From positions 1,488,001 to 1,552,000 of the forward strand of contig NZ_BAABKV010000001.1 of the NCBI RefSeq assembly GCF_039544005.1: 64,000 bases of DNA, written 5' to 3'. The translations under genes and the position numbers were made by a program. Source of the DNA: Kitasatospora paranensis (GTDB taxonomy: Bacteria > Actinomycetota > Actinomycetes > Streptomycetales > Streptomycetaceae). Below are positions 23,814 to 32,755 of the stretch, one piece after another (positions within the stretch are counted from its first letter, which is position 1; every line of letters starts with the position of its first letter). The notes under the pieces are model-generated. The model worked only from the letters and a program-made list of their open reading frames with translations. It was not told where the DNA came from and made no database searches.

Positions 23814-24500
23814 ATGCACGAGACGGACGCGATTACCTCGGCAGTACGGGTCCTGGTGGTCGAGGACGATGCGGGGATCGCCCGTTCCCTGGTGCGTGGC
23901 CTCGGCCGGGCCGGCTACTCGGCGCGGAGTGTCGGAACGGGGCACGCCGCTCTCTGCGTCGACCCGCTGCCCGACGTGGTCCTGCTCGACCTGGGCCTGC
24001 CCGACCTGGACGGGGTCGAGGTCTGCCGCCGGCTGCGCAGGCGGTGCGATGCGGCGATCATCGTGGTGACCGCGCGCGGCGAGGAGGGCGACCGGGTTTC
24101 GGCCCTGGACGAGGGTGCGGACGACTATCTCGTCAAGCCGTTCGGGCTGGCCGAACTGCTCGCCCGGATCCGGGCGGTGCTCCGTCGCACGCGCCCCGTC
24201 GAACCGGAGCTGCTCCGGCACGGCGTGCTCACCGTGGATCCTCGGACCCGCAAGGTGAGCGTCGAGGGGAACGAAATCGCTCTCACACCGAAGGAGTTCG
24301 ACATCCTGGAGTGCCTGGCGGTCGACCCGGGCCGGGTGGTGTCCCGGCAGGAGATCCTGGAACGGGCCTGGGACGAGCACTGGTACGGCCCCACCAAGGT
24401 GCTCGATGTCCACATGGCCGCCCTGCGCCGCAAGCTCGGCGTGCCCGGGCTGGTGGAAACGGTATACGGCCGGGGCTTCCGGCTCGGCGAGCCGGGCTGA
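23814..24500 (+). CDS. OmpR-family response regulator
   Basis: 228 residues. Receiver domain: VLVVEDDAGIARSLVRGL, phosphoacceptor Asp in DVVLLDLGLPDLDG, Lys in YLVKPFG. OmpR winged helix: ALTPKEFDILECLAVDPGRV, then KVLDVHMAALRRKLG and VYGRGFRLG. TACGCT at 23802-23807 ends six bases before ATG 23814, so a leaderless transcript is possible. Followed 6 bases later by its sensor kinase. Its direct-repeat targets could include the 11-bp repeats near 35.4 and 37.2 kb (inference). Confidence 0.92.
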   Translation: MHETDAITSAVRVLVVEDDAGIARSLVRGLGRAGYSARSVGTGHAALCVDPLPDVVLLDLGLPDLDGVEVCRRLRRRCDAAIIVVTARGEEGDRVSALDEGADDYLVKPFGLAELLARIRAVLRRTRPVEPELLRHGVLTVDPRTRKVSVEGNEIALTPKEFDILECLAVDPGRVVSRQEILERAWDEHWYGPTKVLDVHMAALRRKLGVPGLVETVYGRGFRLGEPG

Positions 24501-24506
24501 CCGGCG

Positions 24507-25903
24507 ATGACCCGTCGGATCGCACTGACCGTCCTGGCCCTGGTCACCGTTCTCCTGGTGCTCGCCGTCGTTCCACTGGGCGTGCTGCTGACCCAGCGGG
24601 AGGAGACCTCCTTCCGCAGCACGGCGGAGGCCTCCGCAGGGACTCTCGCCTCCGCCGCCGAGGAGCACCTCTCCGACCACAAGCCCGACACCGACATGCG
24701 GGAGCTGCTCGACGAGACACAGGACGAGGGCGGCTGCGCGGCGGTCTTCGACGCGGCCGGACAGGTGGTCGCGCGCACCTCCTGCTCCACCGCCACGGAC
24801 GACGGGACCCGGAGCCTGGTGGCCGCCGCCCTCGCCCACCCGCACACCACCGCACACCGGTCCGGCGACACCCTGACGGTGGCGACACCGATCGGCGACA
24901 GCGCCGACAAGGTCGGGGTGGCCGTCCTGGTGAAGTCGGCCGACCCGCTGGACGACCGGATCGCGGTGGTCTGGGGCTGGCTCGCGCTCATCGGTGTCGT
25001 GGGGCTCGTCCTGGGCACCGTCGTGTCCGTACGACTGGCCCGATGGGTGGGCCGCCCCTCCAGTCCGTCGACGCCGCAGCCAGGCGCCTGGGCGAGGGCG
25101 CGCTGGACGTCAGGGCCCCGGCCGACTCCGGGCCGGAGGAGGTACGCCGGCTCGCGGCCACCTTCAACACCATGGCCGCACGGACCGAGGCCCTGGTGCA
25201 CGGCCACCGGGCGGTGACCGCGGACGTCTCCCACCAGCTCCGGACCCCGCTGACCGCGCTGCGGCTGCGCCTCGACCTGCTGGCGGCCGACGCCGAGGGC
25301 GAGGACGCGGTCGAACTGGCCGGCGCTCAGGAGGAGATCGCACGCCTGTCCCGGCTGGTGGACGGCCTGCTGGCGGCCGCACGGGCGGAGAACGCGGTGC
25401 CCAGGCCCGTCCCCGTGCGGCTGGACGACGTGGTCGCGGAGCGGATCGCGGCTTGGGACCCGGTGGCCGCCGAACGACGGGTGGAACTGAGCTCGCACTG
25501 CCCGGGGCGGCCCACCGTGTTCGTCGGTGCGGGCGACCTGGAGCAGCTCCTCGACAACCTGCTGGCCAACGCGCTGGACGCCGTACCCGGGGGCGGCCGC
25601 ATCCGGGTGGAGGCCGCCCCCGCGGCCGCCGCCTTCGGACCCGGCACGGAGTTGCGGGTCATCGACGACGGACCGGGGATGAGCCCCGAGGCGCGGGCGA
25701 CCGCGTTCCGGCGGTTCGGCAACCCGGAGGCCCGCGGCACGGGACTCGGGCTGGCCATCGTGCACCGGCTGGCGACCGCCAACGGCGGCACGGCGCGGCT
25801 GGAGGACACCGACGGCGGCGGCCTGACCGTCGTCCTGGAGCTGCCCGCGGTGCCGCGCGGGCAGGTGCAGGAGCCCGGCCGGCCACCGCAGCCGACCGGC
25901 TGA
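24507..25903 (+). CDS. sensor histidine kinase (one frameshift)
   Basis: About 466 residues once repaired. N-terminal helix (VLALVTVLLVLAVVPLGVLL), ~130-residue extracytoplasmic sensor, second helix (LALIGVVGLVLGTVVSVRL), HAMP, then HisKA with ADVSHQLRTPLTALRLRL and HATPase with NLLANALDAV, DDGPGMS and GTGLGLAIVHRLA. The frame breaks near 25045-25055 in a CCCC run (VGRP then LQSVDAAARRLGEG), one missing C. It pairs with the upstream OmpR-type regulator. The electron-transfer operon begins 220 bases downstream on the same strand and may be its target. Confidence 0.88.
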
Positions 25904-26122: not shown

Positions 26123-26431
26123 ATGCCGGACTCCGACCCTTTCCAGGACCAGCGCGCCGTCCGCCGGCGCGACCGAGGTCTGCGCCGTGTCGGCGCGGTC
26201 ACCGCCGCCGCGCTGACGGCCGCCGCCGCTGGCACCGCGATCCTGGGCACCCAGTACCGCAGCCAGCTGCCGGGTGCCGCCGTCGCCCCCGCAACGACGA
26301 CCTCACCCGGTGCAGCGGGCACGCCCGGGACGCCGACCCCGCAGTCGACCGCGCCGCGGCCGCCCGCCCAGGCCCCGGCGCCGGTCACCCCGCACACGCA
26401 GGCACCGGCCACCACCTCGGGTGCGTCGTGA
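26123..26431 (+). CDS. small membrane-anchored Pro/Thr-rich protein ending in SGAS
   Basis: 102 residues: charged N-terminus, one transmembrane helix (VGAVTAAALTAAAAGTAILG), then a Pro/Thr/Ala-rich linker that ends abruptly with ATTSGAS. In related actinobacterial operons this position is held by an FMN-binding domain protein with the same anchor and linker. Here the FMN-binding domain is absent, but the last residues resemble an ApbE flavinylation acceptor motif (S/T-G-A-S/T) without its acidic residue. GGGAGGTG precedes the ATG; the stop overlaps the ApbE start. The role as a minimal flavin carrier is speculative. Confidence 0.65.
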   Translation: MPDSDPFQDQRAVRRRDRGLRRVGAVTAAALTAAAAGTAILGTQYRSQLPGAAVAPATTTSPGAAGTPGTPTPQSTAPRPPAQAPAPVTPHTQAPATTSGAS

Positions 26432-27390
26432 CCGCGGCGGCCGTCCGACACTCCACCACGACCTTCCCGGCCTTGGGGACGACGGCGGTGCTGCTGGTGG
26501 CCGACCCCGGCGGCACGGCAACCGCCCTCCGGGTGCTGGAGGAGGAACTCTCGGCGATCGACCTCGCGTGCAGCAGGTTCCGGCCCGACTCCGAACTCTC
26601 CCGGGCCAACCGCGCCGACGGCCCGGTCACGGTCGGCCCGCTGTTCGCCGAGGCGATCGAGGCCGCGTTGCGGGCGGCGGAGGCCACCGACGGCGCGGTC
26701 GATCCCACCGTCGGCCCTGCCGTCTCGGCGCTCGGCTACGACCGGACCTTCGCCTCGGTGCGGCCCGAGGACGTCGCACCGGTGACCCCGGTCCGGCCGT
26801 CCGGCTGGCGCTGCATCGAGTGGCACGCACGGGCCAGGCGGCTGCGGCTGCCTCCGGGGACCGCACTCGACCTGGGGGCAACGGCCAAAGCGCTGGCCGC
26901 GGATCGTGCGGCCGAGCGTGCGACGCGTCTCACCGGGTGCGGGGTGCTGGTCAATCTCGGCGGTGATCTGGCGACCGCAGGCCCCGCACCGGGCGGGGGC
27001 TGGCAGGTGGCGATCGCCGACGATCACACGGCCCCAGCCGACGGAGCCGGCCCTGCGGTGTCCGTCCGCAGCGGTGGCCTGGCCACCTCGGGCACCACCG
27101 TGCGGAGCTGGCGGCGCGGCGGCCGGACACTCCACCACATCGTCGACCCGGCCACCGGGGACATCCCGGTCCCCCTCTGGCGGACCGTCAGCGTCGCCGC
27201 CGCGACCTGCGTCGACGCCAACACCGCGGCCACCGCGGCGGTCGTACGCGGTGCGCAGGCGCTCAGCTGGCTGAACACACTCCGCCTGCCGGCCCGCCTC
27301 GTGCGCACCGACGGATCCGTGGTGGTGGTCGGCGGCTGGCCGCCCGACCCCGCCGCCGATCCCGCCCGCGCCCAGGGAGGATCCCGATGA
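26428..27390 (+). CDS. apbE: FAD:protein FMN transferase (ApbE family)
   Basis: 320 residues. ApbE enzymes attach FMN covalently to Thr/Ser in target proteins using FAD and Mg2+. Motifs: TTFPALGTTAVLLVAD start, EEELSAIDLACSRFRPDSELSR split by the usual spacing, DPTVGPAVSALGYDR, LDLGATAKALAAD, GVLVNLGGDLATAG, GGLATSGTTVR and HHIVDPATGDI; all expected substrate and metal segments are present. No signal peptide or lipobox is visible, so it acts in the cytoplasm or needs another route. GTGA overlap with the upstream gene and ATGA overlap with the downstream gene show a tight operon. Confidence 0.92.
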   Translation: MTAAAVRHSTTTFPALGTTAVLLVADPGGTATALRVLEEELSAIDLACSRFRPDSELSRANRADGPVTVGPLFAEAIEAALRAAEATDGAVDPTVGPAVSALGYDRTFASVRPEDVAPVTPVRPSGWRCIEWHARARRLRLPPGTALDLGATAKALAADRAAERATRLTGCGVLVNLGGDLATAGPAPGGGWQVAIADDHTAPADGAGPAVSVRSGGLATSGTTVRSWRRGGRTLHHIVDPATGDIPVPLWRTVSVAAATCVDANTAATAAVVRGAQALSWLNTLRLPARLVRTDGSVVVVGGWPPDPAADPARAQGGSR

Positions 27391-28139
27391 CCGGCACCAT
27401 GCAGTTCGCCTCCGCGGGCCCGAGCCCGCTCTGGTACGCGACCCGGGCCGGCGGCACCGTCGCACTCGTCCTGCTCACGGCCACACTCGTCCTGGGGATC
27501 GCGGCCGGCGGCCGGTACGCGCCCAAGCGGATCGCCCGGTTCGAGATCGGCGCCCTGCACCGGAACCTCTCACTGCTCACCCTCGCGTTCCTCGGCCTCC
27601 ACATCGCGACCGCGATCGCCGACCCGTTCGTCCACCTGACCTGGCTGGACGCGGTGGTGCCCTTCGCCTCCTCGTACCGCCCGCTGTGGCTGGGACTCGG
27701 GGCCCTCGCCCTGGACCTGCTGCTGGCCGTCCTGGTGACCAGCGCGGTACGGCTGCGGATCGGCCGCAGGGCGTGGAAGGCGGTGCACTGGCTCGCCTAC
27801 GCGGTCTGGCCGCTGGCGCTGTTCCACGGCGCGGGCACCGGGACGGACACCCGGCTGACACTGCAACTGGGTCTCACCGCCGGCTGTCTCACCGCCGTGG
27901 TGGCCGCGGTGTGGTGGCGCCTGGTCCGGGCGGGTCCAGGGCACCGGGCCGGCCGGATCTGGGCTGCTCTGTCCGCGGCCGCCGTGCCCGCCCTCGTGGT
28001 GGCGCTGCTCGCGGCCGGCCCGGCAAGGACCGGCTGGGCCCACCACGGCGGCACCATCGAGCGACCGGGCACGGTCGCCACCGACCACCGGACCGCCGGC
28101 GACGACGGCGCGGACGTGGACCGAGGAGACGACCAGTGA
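27387..28139 (+). CDS. ferric-reductase-like transmembrane protein
   Basis: 250 residues with about six helices (TVALVLLTATLVLGIAAGG, LTLAFLGLHIATAIADPFV, LWLGLGALALDLLLAVLVTS, VHWLAYAVWPLALFHGAGTG, LGLTAGCLTAVVAAVWW, AAVPALVVALLAAG). Histidines in GALHRNLSL, GLHIA, VHWLAY and FHGAG are positioned for two hemes, as in ferric reductase/NOX-like domains. A His/Asp-rich C-terminal tail follows. No flavin domain is fused, so electrons probably come from the following NuoF-like and ferredoxin proteins. Confidence 0.85.
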   Translation: MTGTMQFASAGPSPLWYATRAGGTVALVLLTATLVLGIAAGGRYAPKRIARFEIGALHRNLSLLTLAFLGLHIATAIADPFVHLTWLDAVVPFASSYRPLWLGLGALALDLLLAVLVTSAVRLRIGRRAWKAVHWLAYAVWPLALFHGAGTGTDTRLTLQLGLTAGCLTAVVAAVWWRLVRAGPGHRAGRIWAALSAAAVPALVVALLAAGPARTGWAHHGGTIERPGTVATDHRTAGDDGADVDRGDDQ

Positions 28140-29476
28140 TCCCGCAGACCAGCACAGTCGAGGCCCCGCAGCCGCAGTACATCCCCGAAGGCCCGGCCGG
28201 CGCCAGGCTGCTGCACGGCTGGTACGCCACCGGCGGGCCCGCCGGCCTGGCCGAGCACCTGCGGCGGTACGGTCGGCCGCCCACCGCTTCCGGCCGCCGG
28301 GCCGCGACGGGGCTGATCCGTGCGGTCGACGAGGCCGGGCTGACCGGGCGGGGCGGCGCCGCCTTCCCGACCGGGCGCAAGCTCCGCTCGGTCGCCGAAC
28401 GGCGGGGCCGGGCCGTGGTCGTGGCCAACGGCATGGAGAGCGAGCCCGCCAGCGGGAAGGACACGGCCCTGCTCGACCTCGCCCCCCACCTGGTGCTCGA
28501 CGGCGCCACCCTGGCCGCAGCCGCCGTCGGCGCCTCCGCCGTCCATCTCTGCGTGCCCCGCACCCGGTCGTGGCAGTTCGAGCGGCTGACCGCCGCCGTC
28601 GACGAGCGGCGGCGCTCCGACCTGGACCGGGTGCCCGTCCACGTGCACGCCCTTCCCCACCACTACGTCTCCAGCGAGGAGACCTCGCTGGTGCGCTGGC
28701 TGAACGGCGGCGACGCCCGCCCCTCGGCCGCCCCGCCACGGCCGTACGAGAAGGGCGTGGGCGGGCGCCCCACCCTCGTCGACAACGTGGAGACCCTCGC
28801 CCACCTCGCCCTCATCGCCCGCTACGGGCCACAGTGGTTCCGCGCCGCCGGGAGCCCGGACGCGCCCGGCACGAGCCTGGTCACGGTCTCGGGTGCGGTC
28901 CGTGTCCCCGGCGTCCGCGAGATCCCGCTCGGCACCCCGGTCGGGGCCGTCCTGGACGCCGCCGGCGGCGCCTCCGAGCCGCTCCGGGCGGTCCTTGTCG
29001 GCGGGTATTTCGGCAGCTGGCTGCCGCTCCCGGCGACGGACGTGCCGTTCAGCCGGAGCGGACTCGCCCAGGTCGGTGCCGGGCCGGGCGCGGGTGTGCT
29101 CACCGCGCTCCCCGAAGATGCCTGCGGCCTCGCCGAGACGGCGCGGGTGCTCGGCTACCTCGCCGCCCAGAGCGCCCGCCAGTGCGGGCCGTGCCGGTTC
29201 GGGCTGCCCGCCGTCGCCGACGACTTCGCCCGGCTCGCCGACGGGCACGCCGACCCGGAGCTGCTCGAACGGCTGCACCGCAGGACCGGTCTGCTCGCCG
29301 GCCGCGGTGCCTGCCGCCACCCTGACGGCGCCTCCCGGCTGGCCGCGACCGCCCTGGAGGTGTTCGAGGACGACGTGCGCCGACACGTGCTGCAGGGGCC
29401 TTGCGGCCCCGCCGTGCGCCGGGCCGTCCTCTCGGTGCCCGACCATGCGGACCCGGAGAGCGAGGGGTGGCGGTGA
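28136..29476 (+). CDS. NuoF-like NADH-binding/SLBB iron-sulfur protein
   Basis: 446 residues similar to the 51-kDa subunit of Complex I and to RnfC-like proteins: GLTGRGGAAFPTGRKLRSV (FMN/NADH site), VVANGMESEPASGKD, GVGGRPTLVDNVETLAHLA, an SLBB-like VSGAVRVPGVREIPLGTPV, and a C-terminal cluster motif SARQCGPCRFGLP plus GACRHPDG. Compared with canonical SCGxCxxCRxG the first cysteine is Ala, so three of the usual four ligands remain and the cluster may be altered. Probably oxidises NAD(P)H and passes electrons to the ferredoxin next door. GTGA overlaps on both sides. Confidence 0.85.
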   Translation: MIPQTSTVEAPQPQYIPEGPAGARLLHGWYATGGPAGLAEHLRRYGRPPTASGRRAATGLIRAVDEAGLTGRGGAAFPTGRKLRSVAERRGRAVVVANGMESEPASGKDTALLDLAPHLVLDGATLAAAAVGASAVHLCVPRTRSWQFERLTAAVDERRRSDLDRVPVHVHALPHHYVSSEETSLVRWLNGGDARPSAAPPRPYEKGVGGRPTLVDNVETLAHLALIARYGPQWFRAAGSPDAPGTSLVTVSGAVRVPGVREIPLGTPVGAVLDAAGGASEPLRAVLVGGYFGSWLPLPATDVPFSRSGLAQVGAGPGAGVLTALPEDACGLAETARVLGYLAAQSARQCGPCRFGLPAVADDFARLADGHADPELLERLHRRTGLLAGRGACRHPDGASRLAATALEVFEDDVRRHVLQGPCGPAVRRAVLSVPDHADPESEGWR

Positions 29477-29700
29477 CCCGGCACCACCGGCTCGCCGTCG
29501 ACCGCGTCGCCTGCGACGGCCGTGGACTCTGCGCCGAGTTGCTGCCCGAACTGGTCACCCTCGACGAGTGGGGCTACCCGGTCCTCACGGGGTCCGCCGT
29601 GCCCGGAGAACTCCTGGCCGACGCCCGGCGCGCGGTCGCGGCCTGTCCCGTTCTGGCACTGCGGCTGGAACGGGGCCCCGATCGTCCCGTCCGCACGTGA
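29473..29700 (+). CDS. ferredoxin, [3Fe-4S] type
   Basis: 75 residues: VDRVACDGRGLCAELLPE and AVAACPVLAL give the C-x5-C ... C-P pattern of actinobacterial [3Fe-4S] ferredoxins. GTGA overlap with the NuoF-like gene. It is the likely one-electron link between that protein and the membrane heme protein. Confidence 0.85.
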   Translation: MTRHHRLAVDRVACDGRGLCAELLPELVTLDEWGYPVLTGSAVPGELLADARRAVAACPVLALRLERGPDRPVRT

Positions 29701-29755
29701 CCTGAACCACTTCTTAGTGCTCACCCGGGCACACTGCTGACGGTCCCGCACCGGA

Positions 29756-29770
29756 CGGGACACCGTCCCG
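29756..29770. terminator. inverted repeat after the ferredoxin gene
   Basis: CGGGAC-ACC-GTCCCG, 56 bases after the ferredoxin stop and 43 before the next gene. The loop is too short for an ideal terminator, so a regulator-binding site for the b561-like gene is an alternative. Confidence 0.4.
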
Positions 29771-29812
29771 CCCACGGCGCGGTCCTGCATCACCGGAAGG
29801 CGGAGTCAGCAC

Positions 29813-30529
29813 ATGCACTCGACAGGCAGCACCACGGCGCCGACGGGCAGGACCGTACCGACTCCGACGGGGCTCCTGGGAGGGCCCGACGGGAACCGGC
29901 GGCTGGTCGCCGCCACCGGTGCGCTCCTGCTGGTCCTCCTCGCGGCGCAGGGCGTCACCATTCTGTTCCTCGGGCAGCTCCTCACTTGGCACTTCTTCAT
30001 AGGAATGCTGCTCGTCGGCCCTGTCGTGCTCAAACTCGGCAGCACGGGCTACCGCTTCGTCCGCTACTACGCCGGCAACCCGGCCTATCGGCGACAGGGA
30101 CCGCCGCATCCGCTGCTGCGGCTGCTCGCCCCGCTCGTCGTCGCCACCACGGTCGCCGTGCTGGCCACCGGCGGTGCGCTGGCACTCATGGGGCGGGACA
30201 CCGGGCCGGTGCCCGTCCTGTTCCTCCACAAGGCCAGCTTCGTCTGCTGGGCGGCGGCGACCGGCGTCCACGTGCTGGCCCACGTGTGGCGTCTGCCCAG
30301 GCTGATCGGCGCCGACCTGCGGCTGCGCGCCGCACGCCACGGTGGGCCCCGCGTCCGCGGCACCGCCGTCCGCTGGTCGCTGCTGGGTGCGGCGCTGGCA
30401 GCAGGGCTCGCCCTGGCCCTCGTCGGCACACCGCTGGCCGCGCGGTGGCAGTCGTCCGCTCACCACGCCGGACGACACCACGTGAAGCACTCCGCTGCCT
30501 CGGCACCGGCGGCCGGCCGACCGTCCTGA
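29813..30529 (+). CDS. cytochrome b561-like membrane protein (DUF4405-like)
   Basis: 238 residues with five predicted helices. Histidines in LTWHFFIGMLLVGPVVLKLG, FLHKASFVCW and ATGVHVLAHVWRL are placed like heme-b ligands of small membrane cytochromes. The tail is His-rich (SSAHHAGRHHVKHS) and may bind metal. It follows the ferredoxin operon after 112 bases in the same direction and probably completes its electron path. Confidence 0.7.
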   Translation: MHSTGSTTAPTGRTVPTPTGLLGGPDGNRRLVAATGALLLVLLAAQGVTILFLGQLLTWHFFIGMLLVGPVVLKLGSTGYRFVRYYAGNPAYRRQGPPHPLLRLLAPLVVATTVAVLATGGALALMGRDTGPVPVLFLHKASFVCWAAATGVHVLAHVWRLPRLIGADLRLRAARHGGPRVRGTAVRWSLLGAALAAGLALALVGTPLAARWQSSAHHAGRHHVKHSAASAPAAGRPS

Positions 30530-31351: not shown

Positions 31352-31885
31352 ATGCAAGCCCTGATCGTCTACGAGAGCATGTACGGCAACACGCACGAGA
31401 TCGCCGAGGCGATCGCCGAGGGAATCCAGGAGGCCCACCCGGACGCCTCCGTTCGGTGCCTGACCGCCGTCGCGGCCGACGCCGACCAGACCCGTGCGGC
31501 CGACCTGCTGGTGGTCGGCGGCCCGACGCACATGCGCGGCATGTCCAGCGGCATGAGCCGCCGAATGGCCGTGTCGGCCGAAGCCAGGAAGGAAGGCCAC
31601 GACGAGCAGGCGCAGGAGGCGGCCGACACAGCAGAGGGACCGGGGTTGCGCCGCTGGTTCCACGACCTCTCCGACACCGAACCCGGCACGTACGCCGCCG
31701 CCTTCGACACCCGTCTGGACGGCCGGCTCGCCGGCGGAGCCGCCGAGGGCATCGCGCAGCGGCTCTCGCACCACCACTACGACGTCATGGTCGAGCCCGA
31801 GGGTTTCATCGTCGAGGACGCCGACGGGCCGCTGCGCACGGGCGAGATCGAACGCGCGAAGGCCTGGGGCTCCGGCCTCGTCTGA
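31352..31885 (+). CDS. flavodoxin family protein
   Basis: 177 residues. FMN phosphate loop VYESMYGNTHEIAEAIAEGI and the second loop VVGGPTHMRGMS are conserved. A ~35-residue charged insertion (KEGHDEQAQEAADTAEGPG) is followed by a Pro-poor C-terminal domain ending EGFIVEDADGPLRTGEIERA, typical of streptomycete flavodoxin-like proteins. Likely a soluble electron carrier or an FMN-dependent oxidoreductase linked to the nearby redox modules. Confidence 0.88.
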   Translation: MQALIVYESMYGNTHEIAEAIAEGIQEAHPDASVRCLTAVAADADQTRAADLLVVGGPTHMRGMSSGMSRRMAVSAEARKEGHDEQAQEAADTAEGPGLRRWFHDLSDTEPGTYAAAFDTRLDGRLAGGAAEGIAQRLSHHHYDVMVEPEGFIVEDADGPLRTGEIERAKAWGSGLV

Positions 31886-31905: not shown

Positions 31906-32368
31906 ACCCGGCCGTCCGCGGCGCAGGGCAGGCGGAGCGCTCGGGCAGGTCCTCGGCCCGGTTCTCCGCGTGCGGCACAGCCACCAGCAGCAGGGCCCGA
32001 GGACGGGGCATGAACGGGCCGTCGCCGAACTCCCCCGGGCAGTCTCGACTGCCGCCATGGGCGACGAGCACAATCCCCAATTTCCCACGTGGGCTCGGCC
32101 GAAAGTTCCGGGCGAGTCCGGTGATGGCGGGTGGCAGGACCGCGCACCGTGCCCGCGTCCGCATGGACCTCCGGGTGGAGGTCGCCACGGGGACGGTGTC
32201 CTCCAGCGGGCCGACGGACCCCGGCACCGGTCGGTGGCGAGCAGCGCCGCGACGTGCCGTCCCATCGGATACGGCAGACAGTGGTGTGCGGAGCGCGATC
32301 GCCGGGGTCGACGGCCCGCACCGGGTACGACAGAACGGCATGCCGCCGGTTGAACACGAGGAGTGGCT
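31906..32368. other. gene-free stretch
   Basis: Frames on both strands are open but lack consistent coding composition. The minus frame with GKLGIVLVAHGGSRDCPGEF looks slightly protein-like but has no start, end or family I recognise. Possible decayed gene. Confidence 0.35.
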
Positions 32369-32755
32369 GTGAGCGAGGAACTTGCAGGAGACTGGTACAA
32401 CGAATTCGGCTCGCACCTGCGCCTGGTGGCCGATCCGGCCGGTCGGCTGACCGGGACATTCACCCCCGGCGCCGGGCCGGGCGGTCGGCGCGACCTTGTC
32501 GGGCAGTTCGACGTGGGTACCACAGCCGCGGGAATTGCGCTCGGGTGGACGGTCGCCTGGCGCGACGAGTACGGCGGACCCGCCTCGGTGACGAGCTGGA
32601 GCGGCCAGTGGCTGCCAGGAGAGCAACGCATCGTGGCGGGCTGGCTGTTCACGACCGCGACGGATCCGGATGAGGCGTGGAAGGCCACCGTGATCGGCCG
32701 GGACACCTTCCTGCGTCGACCGTCGTCCGGGGCAGCCGGACGGCCCGGTGCGTGA
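32369..32755 (+). CDS. streptavidin/avidin-family biotin-binding protein, cytoplasmic form
   Basis: 128 residues covering the whole eight-stranded avidin barrel: LAGDWYNEFGSHLRL, LTGTF, LGWTVAWRDEYGG, SVTSWSGQW, AGWLFTTATDPDEAWKATVI and GRDTFL. By motif alignment the streptavidin biotin contacts N23, S27, W79, S88, T90, W92, W108, W120 and D128 correspond to N11, S15, W64, S73, T75, W77, W92, W104 and D112; only Y43 (Phe) and S45 (Pro) differ. There is no signal peptide, unlike secreted streptavidin, so it should be cytoplasmic. GTG 32369 is chosen over GTG 32363 because GAGGAG is 5 bases upstream. Its role (biotin sequestration or binding of biotinylated enzymes) is unknown. Confidence 0.85.
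   Translation: MSEELAGDWYNEFGSHLRLVADPAGRLTGTFTPGAGPGGRRDLVGQFDVGTTAAGIALGWTVAWRDEYGGPASVTSWSGQWLPGEQRIVAGWLFTTATDPDEAWKATVIGRDTFLRRPSSGAAGRPGA

Follow-up and report, generated by a model that had tools for sequence, protein, structure and literature searches.

Operon encoding ApbE, its electron-transfer partners and a small tail protein

The actinobacterium Kitasatospora paranensis carries, within the 64,000-nt stretch analysed here (contig NZ_BAABKV010000001.1, positions 1,488,001 to 1,552,000; hereafter the window, part of an 8.41-Mb single-contig genome), an operon that joins the gene for an FAD:protein FMN transferase, ApbE, to genes for electron-transfer proteins and for a small membrane-anchored protein ending in TTSGAS. 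Many actinobacteria share this arrangement, and comparison of the ending among relatives makes it likely that the small protein is the dedicated substrate of the adjoining ApbE, flavinylated on its last serine to give a tethered flavin fed by the operon's cytochrome. The features of the locus are as follows (ORF, open reading frame; type A is defined below).

26123..26431, + strand: small tail protein gene; ORF of 102 residues ending ...APATTSGAS, no Pfam or NCBIfam family
26189..26242, + strand: hydrophobic helix core VGAVTAAALTAAAAGTAI, probable membrane anchor with the N-terminus inside (hydrophobicity scan)
26411..26428, + strand: TTSGAS tail, Ser102 being the proposed FMN acceptor (C-terminal conservation in the family)
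26428..27390, + strand: apbE, FAD:protein FMN transferase, type A (PF02424, 7.5e-52); GTGA overlap with the tail gene
27387..28139, + strand: MsrQ-like/ferric-reductase-like membrane cytochrome (PF01794 Ferric_reduct, 8.5e-7); ATGA overlap with apbE
28136..29476, + strand: NuoF-like NAD(P)H dehydrogenase subunit with FMN, SLBB and FeS regions (Pfam); GTGA overlap
29467..29700, + strand: single-cluster ferredoxin (PF13459 Fer4_15, 2.4e-13); 10-nt overlap with the NuoF-like gene
29813..30529, + strand: b561-like membrane protein; ORF named by inspection, no Pfam family above cut-off

Successive genes between 26123 and 29700 overlap by 4-10 nt, and the b561-like gene follows after a 112-nt gap. 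The original prediction, made from the letters of the sequence, had described an overlapping operon of a transmembrane-linker protein, ApbE, a ferric-reductase-like protein, a NuoF-like protein and a ferredoxin, followed by a b561-like protein; every ORF lies where it had been placed, and the Pfam assignments agree. Judged by the NuoF-like protein, the closest relatives are a Streptomyces-named strain (85% identity) and Kitasatospora strains (75-76%), the names being those of the contigs. The small protein consists of an Arg-rich N-terminus, a single transmembrane helix, a Pro/Thr-rich linker of about 60 residues and the C-terminal TTSGAS. It matches no Pfam family at E values up to 1, and so not PF04205 (FMN_bind), and no NCBIfam family.

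A conserved C-terminus on variable linkers

Known ApbEs place FMN on the last residue of the motif D-x-x-[ST]-G-A-[ST] (PMC12052999). The window protein has T-S-G-A-S without the Asp, while the complete motif was found at four other loci (L067, L207, L210, L220). As a query in 61 genomes, the small protein alone returned a handful of real relatives and otherwise mostly low-complexity matches. Tail candidates were defined by position, as the 5' neighbours of homologous apbE genes or of cytochrome genes (at least 45% identity) with no apbE in front, and were required to have a single hydrophobic helix and to be otherwise of low complexity, the last eight residues being ignored. The survey covered loci L065-L160 plus the window and excluded cytochrome matches below 45% identity or with an apbE within 700 nt upstream. 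Eighty places were tested; six had no candidate (L090 and L138, which are the same region, L091, L125, L145, and L158 at the cytochrome gene) and five were duplicates, leaving 69 non-identical proteins, 55 directly 5' of apbE and 14 directly 5' of the cytochrome gene. Two more at contig edges were excluded. Among the places without a candidate, the upstream ORF of L090/L138 ends in VISGGS yet has no clear helix, and L145 has two tail genes, both outside the selection filter.

Alignment of the 69 proteins at their C-termini revealed Ser at −1 in 68, [GA] at −2 in 67, Gly at −3 in 59 and [ST] at −4 in 68. Entropy at −1, −2, −3 and −4 is 0.11, 1.15, 0.86 and 0.74 bits, respectively, compared with about 1.8-3.4 further in. 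The ending [ST]-x-[GA]-S occurs in 66/69 proteins, against a mean of 1.2 (highest 7, 2000 rounds) when residues were drawn at random from the linkers, which rules out the Ser/Thr/Gly-rich composition of the linkers as its cause. The linkers span 21-134 residues (median 83), and an excess of Lys and Arg N-terminal of the helix is present in 69/69 proteins, so that the tail is predicted to lie outside. The resemblance of TTSGAS to the acceptor motif, pointed out in the original prediction, thus extends to an ending far above chance among homologues, and the comparison of the first gene with homologous operons that it had recommended yielded similar proteins with the same ending in front of apbE or the cytochrome gene. 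It had also raised a concealed FMN-binding domain, to be restored by correcting an indel near 26420; this was rejected, the stop and the motif being common to relatives, and since even strongly divergent linkers terminate in that motif, an indel is disfavored as the explanation.

In two loci an additional helix-plus-linker protein ending in HHVTSGGS was observed after the b561-like gene (L085:7650, and L086, reverse strand, 7203); it is perhaps a second flavin tail.

Constraint on the protein rather than on the DNA

The tail codons lie where the next gene begins, and the conserved ending could be a by-product of translational coupling, reflecting a Shine-Dalgarno site and the overlapping start of the following gene. 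Indeed, the last bases of 59/69 tail genes read ATGA or GTGA and could serve as an overlapping start. The stop falls exactly at the position predicted by the estimated next start in 19/69, and in some genes the possible start is preceded by GGGAGG or GGTGG. The motif is nonetheless kept in all ten tail genes that lack a possible ATGA/GTGA overlap. The serine codons vary (TCA, TCG, TCC and AGT at −1; TCN or AGC at −4), 11/69 have Thr instead of Ser at −4, and all four Gly codons are used. Tails also stand ahead of genes other than apbE (L065, L089, L131) or, in L085 and L086, after the b561-like gene. Finally, none of the 302 distinct C-termini collected from the other five operon genes (matches of at least 45% identity) carries the [ST]-x-[GA]-S ending, although the window apbE and cytochrome genes show the same kind of overlap with the genes that follow them. 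Retention of the motif without overlap, the varied codons and the occurrence of tails before other genes indicate that the constraint acts on the protein; a Shine-Dalgarno or overlap artefact was rejected on the grounds of codon choice, the overlap-free genes and the other C-termini, and we regard coupling as a most improbable origin of the tail.

Two kinds of ApbE and their neighbors

The statement in the original prediction that no FMN-binding domain is encoded nearby was upheld on the scale of the genome: PF04205 has one match in the whole genome, at 5888978, 4.37 Mb away. The corresponding gene is directly upstream of a second, different apbE, which matches the ApbE profile in two pieces. 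We refer to ApbEs with a continuous profile match, the window's kind, as type A, and to those with a split match, the kind beside FMN_bind, as type B. In 24 genomes, chosen to include those whose tail does not adjoin apbE and containing two entries (G044 and G071) that are apparently the same genome, ApbE was present in 24, while an FMN_bind match was found in 18 and in the other six there was none. A continuous ApbE match occurs in 22/24; the remaining two, G069 and G070, have split matches only, and these are exactly the two without an intact tail. Because the sample is not random, no probability is attached to this association between ApbE type and tail. At L110 the small protein ends in AYRAS and no apbE separates its gene from that of the cytochrome; at L125 neither apbE nor tail was found, and the match to the cytochrome gene is partial. 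In three genomes of a mycobacterial tree branch (G054, G198, G269) the type A apbE has no tail gene in front, and the tail, ending in SRGS, is found elsewhere.

A quick tree of 122 ApbEs, in which the partner labels were assigned by the author, placed the window ApbE in an 88-row clade (support 99). Of these rows 72 have a tail partner, 16 have another or an unassigned partner, and none has an FMN_bind partner. Nine FMN_bind-partnered split ApbEs form a separate clade (support 100). The original prediction had offered, as an alternative, that the small protein is a truncated relative of the usual FMN-binding protein. This finds no backing in the profile search described above, and in the tree most tail-partnered ApbEs cluster apart from the split ApbEs.

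As a separate observation, in four actinobacterial genomes (L163, L167, L173, L178) a continuous-type apbE is preceded by a gene of an unrelated family whose members end with SIRRE.. and GES.ANL stretches, and in these genomes the tail is found elsewhere, adjoining the cytochrome gene.

Other known substrate families were searched in ten genomes, the search covering DUF2271 and NqrB/RnfD and leaving out DUF3570 and Flavodoxin_4. DUF2271 gave no match in any of the ten, and NqrB/RnfD none over the cut-off, with one sub-threshold match in G003. Mycolicibacterium chubuense (G075) has ApbE and no match to FMN_bind, NqrB/RnfD or DUF2271.

Orphan apbE loci across the class

In a class sample of 345 genomes, ApbE was detected in 184 and FMN_bind in 126, all of them among the 184. 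The 58 ApbE genomes without an FMN_bind match are an upper bound, as at least two have an FMN_bind-like sequence missed by the profile. From 44 of these 58 orphan genomes 46 apbE loci were collected. Two further orphan genomes were represented by earlier loci with tails, G054 (L102, SRGS) and G059 (L099, RTSGS), and 12 were left out. Only loci whose continuous match was strong (E up to 1.2e-40) were counted, 38 in all; the other eight have another ApbE type, and two of those eight are preceded by an FMN_bind-like sequence. A helix-plus-linker gene lies directly 5' of apbE in 31/38 loci, and the motif [ST].[GA]S stands at the exact end in 19/38 and at most four residues from the end in 25/38. 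Random draws gave means of 0.65 and 3.1, with highest values of 4 and 11, respectively. The complete D-x-x-T-G-A-S is at the end in L210 and L220 and one residue before it in L207. Guessing of neighbor genes from third-position GC content (GC3) was unreliable in distant loci.

As a control, 14 split-type apbE loci were picked from genomes with FMN_bind; in 14/14, an FMN_bind-like sequence with an internal SGA[ST] lies just upstream of apbE. With tail neighbors for type A and FMN_bind neighbors for the split type, the gene preceding apbE looks like the substrate in both. These data also bear on the possibility that the window ApbE in fact modifies a standard FMN_bind protein encoded elsewhere and that the small protein only aids membrane assembly. 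One such protein is available in the Kitasatospora genome, and at least one in 18 of the 24 genomes searched. Its gene, however, adjoins its own split-type apbE, as in all the control loci, and six of the 24 genomes carry the operon with no FMN_bind match at all, so that we consider a distant FMN_bind substrate highly unlikely.

Electron-transfer partners and proposed mechanism

The cytochrome passes the Ferric_reduct cut-off (29.5 bits against a cut-off of 28) and scores 3.3e-5 against the MsrQ model, far under that model's cut-off. Its residues H58, H72, H134 and H147 are invariant in an alignment of 32 sequences, which fits the expectation for two hemes. The structure model has a mean pLDDT of 79.7, and the fold search was headed by STEAP and bacterial NOX, with all matches weak and none at E < 0.001. 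The NuoF-like protein matches Complex1_51K (8.6e-33), SLBB (9.1e-7) and NADH_4Fe-4S (PF10589, 2.9e-15). In contrast to NuoF of complex I, it lacks the full four-cysteine N3 set: compared with Nqo1, the first cysteine is Ala (ARQCGPC), leaving three, a replacement present in 38/39 non-redundant NuoF-like relatives with a readable motif. By sequence the ferredoxin has three cysteines, and it has relatives among solved ferredoxins. Homologues of the b561-like protein accompany many related loci, from which 31 distinct C-termini were collected, and ApbE aligns with solved ApbEs across the core motifs.

These features suggest a model in which ApbE would move FMN from FAD to the final serine of T-T-S-G-A-S, attaching it through the hydroxyl group, so that a flavin would sit at the tip of a flexible Pro/Ser/Thr-rich tether that is anchored by one membrane helix with its C-terminus outside. 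NAD(P)H would be oxidised by the NuoF-like protein, and electrons would pass from its FeS cluster to the ferredoxin and on to the MsrQ-like cytochrome, cross the membrane through the two cytochrome hemes and reach the tail flavin. From there they could be delivered to an extracytoplasmic acceptor, perhaps a metal or a quinone, or through the b561-like protein. The mechanism as a whole is likely, as read from sequence comparison. The minimal tail-flavinylated carrier put forward in the original prediction has gained strong comparative support, flavinylation itself being putative.

Several observations weigh against flavinylation of the tail by the adjoining enzyme. Only L067 of the 69 proteins has the Asp in place, 41/69 have Gly where the published motif has Ala, and position −3 holds Arg, His, Ser or Lys instead of Gly in 10/69 (Arg or His in mycobacteria). 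According to PMC12052999, mutation of Asp to Ala in a flavinylation tag had a minor effect, and Gly to Ala and Ala to Val roughly halved the yield. Individual loci depart from the pattern: L091 (THTSKHG), L110 (YRAS, no apbE), L112 (SGNS) and L158 (TSGGT then SSG). Seven tail-partnered rows fall outside the 88-row clade, so that tails are not confined to one clade. Among the 38 orphan loci, six have a helix-plus-linker neighbor without the motif (L190, L191, L196, L213, L216, L221), and seven have no such neighbor (L200, L202, L204, L212, L214, L222, L224), with L202 and L212 having a tail elsewhere in the genome. The 69 proteins are, moreover, kin and not independent samples. Lastly, inspection showed no export signal in the window ApbE, yet the tail is predicted to lie outside, and flavinylation would have to precede translocation. 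Inspection likewise showed none in the split ApbE beside FMN_bind in the same genome, so the difficulty is not peculiar to the tail.

The breadth of residues at −3, which exceeds that of the published motif, and the absence of a visible signal peptide on ApbE could also be accommodated if the conserved tail were a peptide at which ApbE, the cytochrome or another partner docks or recognises the protein, or the site of a different modification, with the flavin acceptor located elsewhere. A loosely conserved second element, L-x-P-P-x-x-P-P-x-P, lying 20-31 residues from the end in 14/69 proteins, would likewise suit such a role. Docking leaves unexplained why a near-invariant hydroxyl residue occupies exactly the position at which ApbE attaches FMN, why both genomes that lack type A ApbE have either no tail or a degraded one, and what ApbE would modify in M. 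chubuense, given the families searched there. We judge a docking role unlikely and favor the small protein as the ApbE substrate.

Relation to known flavinylation systems

MsrQ-like flavinylated gene clusters are reported to be broadly conserved in Actinobacteria, typically with a gene for an FMN-binding domain; in 31 of them the entry point for NAD(P)H is a NuoF-like protein with PF10589 (Meheust et al. 2021, PMC8238504). The window shares with them the PF01794 cytochrome with its heme histidines, apbE and the PF10589 entry point, and differs in having the tail protein in place of the PF04205 gene typical of those clusters. With the FMN_bind/split-ApbE pair of its own genome the operon has in common an N-terminal hydrophobic stretch (by inspection), a carrier gene before apbE and SGA[ST]. 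The acceptor of that FMN_bind protein is internal (VSGATYTSDGY...) in a folded domain, whereas that of the small protein would end a low-complexity tether and be served by an ApbE of another branch.

According to Meheust et al. (PMC8238504), the remaining genomes with orphan apbE suggest further ApbE substrates still to be identified. The DUF2271 and DUF3570 substrates were reached by the same orphan-apbE route and share [ST]GA[ST]; they were shown by co-expression and are domains of about 135 and 420 residues, respectively (PMC8238504). Flavodoxin_4 and FMN_red have also been reported as substrates (mSystems 2024, PMC11334425). The FMN_red acceptor, like the proposed one, sits on a disordered C-terminal stretch, which there extends a folded flavin-binding domain, predominantly in Firmicutes; no such domain was found in the tail protein. 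A further parallel is the engineered flavin-tag (Tong et al. 2021, cited from PMC12052999), a short terminal peptide flavinylated by ApbE, for which seven residues are enough and the terminus is the best position. The tag is an artificial labelling tool, whereas the tail is a natural, conserved operon component whose flavinylation is predicted. No natural tail-only ApbE substrate was reported in the literature searched, as judged from titles, the opening lines of abstracts and selected passages of a collection with few subscription papers and no bioRxiv preprints. The enzyme, cytochrome and donor are thus of known kinds, and the kind of substrate seems to be unreported.

We think it reasonably probable that actinobacteria hold widespread, unrecognised ApbE substrates without a flavin-binding fold, each made of a single helix and a disordered tether with the flavin on the last residue, acting as a swinging arm and served mostly by a dedicated ApbE branch. 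Such substrates would explain many orphan apbE genes, and their flavin could reach cell-wall partners at tether length. With the tail or a near form in 25 of the 38 orphan loci, they offer a concrete putative substrate for a share of the actinobacterial orphan apbE genes. If this holds true, a flavin that has no binding pocket and is secured solely by a flexible tether could serve in biological electron transfer, and the tails and their enzymes would supply natural terminal acceptor sequences with matching transferases for flavin-tagging.

Neighboring genes and a second cluster

Upstream of the operon lie genes for a two-component system.

23814..24500, + strand: OmpR-type response regulator, a probable regulator (PF00072, PF00486)
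24507..25903, + strand: sensor histidine kinase gene, from a three-frame reading; frame broken near 25040-25060

The sensor kinase is encoded in a single uninterrupted frame in L105, L085, L106 and L108, and the switch of reading frame near 25040-25060 in the window is either a genuine mutation or a sequence error. The window's genome also has a second cluster of cytochrome, nuoF-like and ferredoxin genes (L083, G000:C1:1085000-1097000), in which neither a nearby ApbE match nor a tail-ending ORF was found; it is followed by genes for secreted-looking proteins with repeated KDTA..SNC-like stretches. Downstream of the operon in the window, a flavodoxin-like protein is encoded at 31352-31885 and an avidin-family protein at 32363-32755 (PF01382, 4.7e-19).

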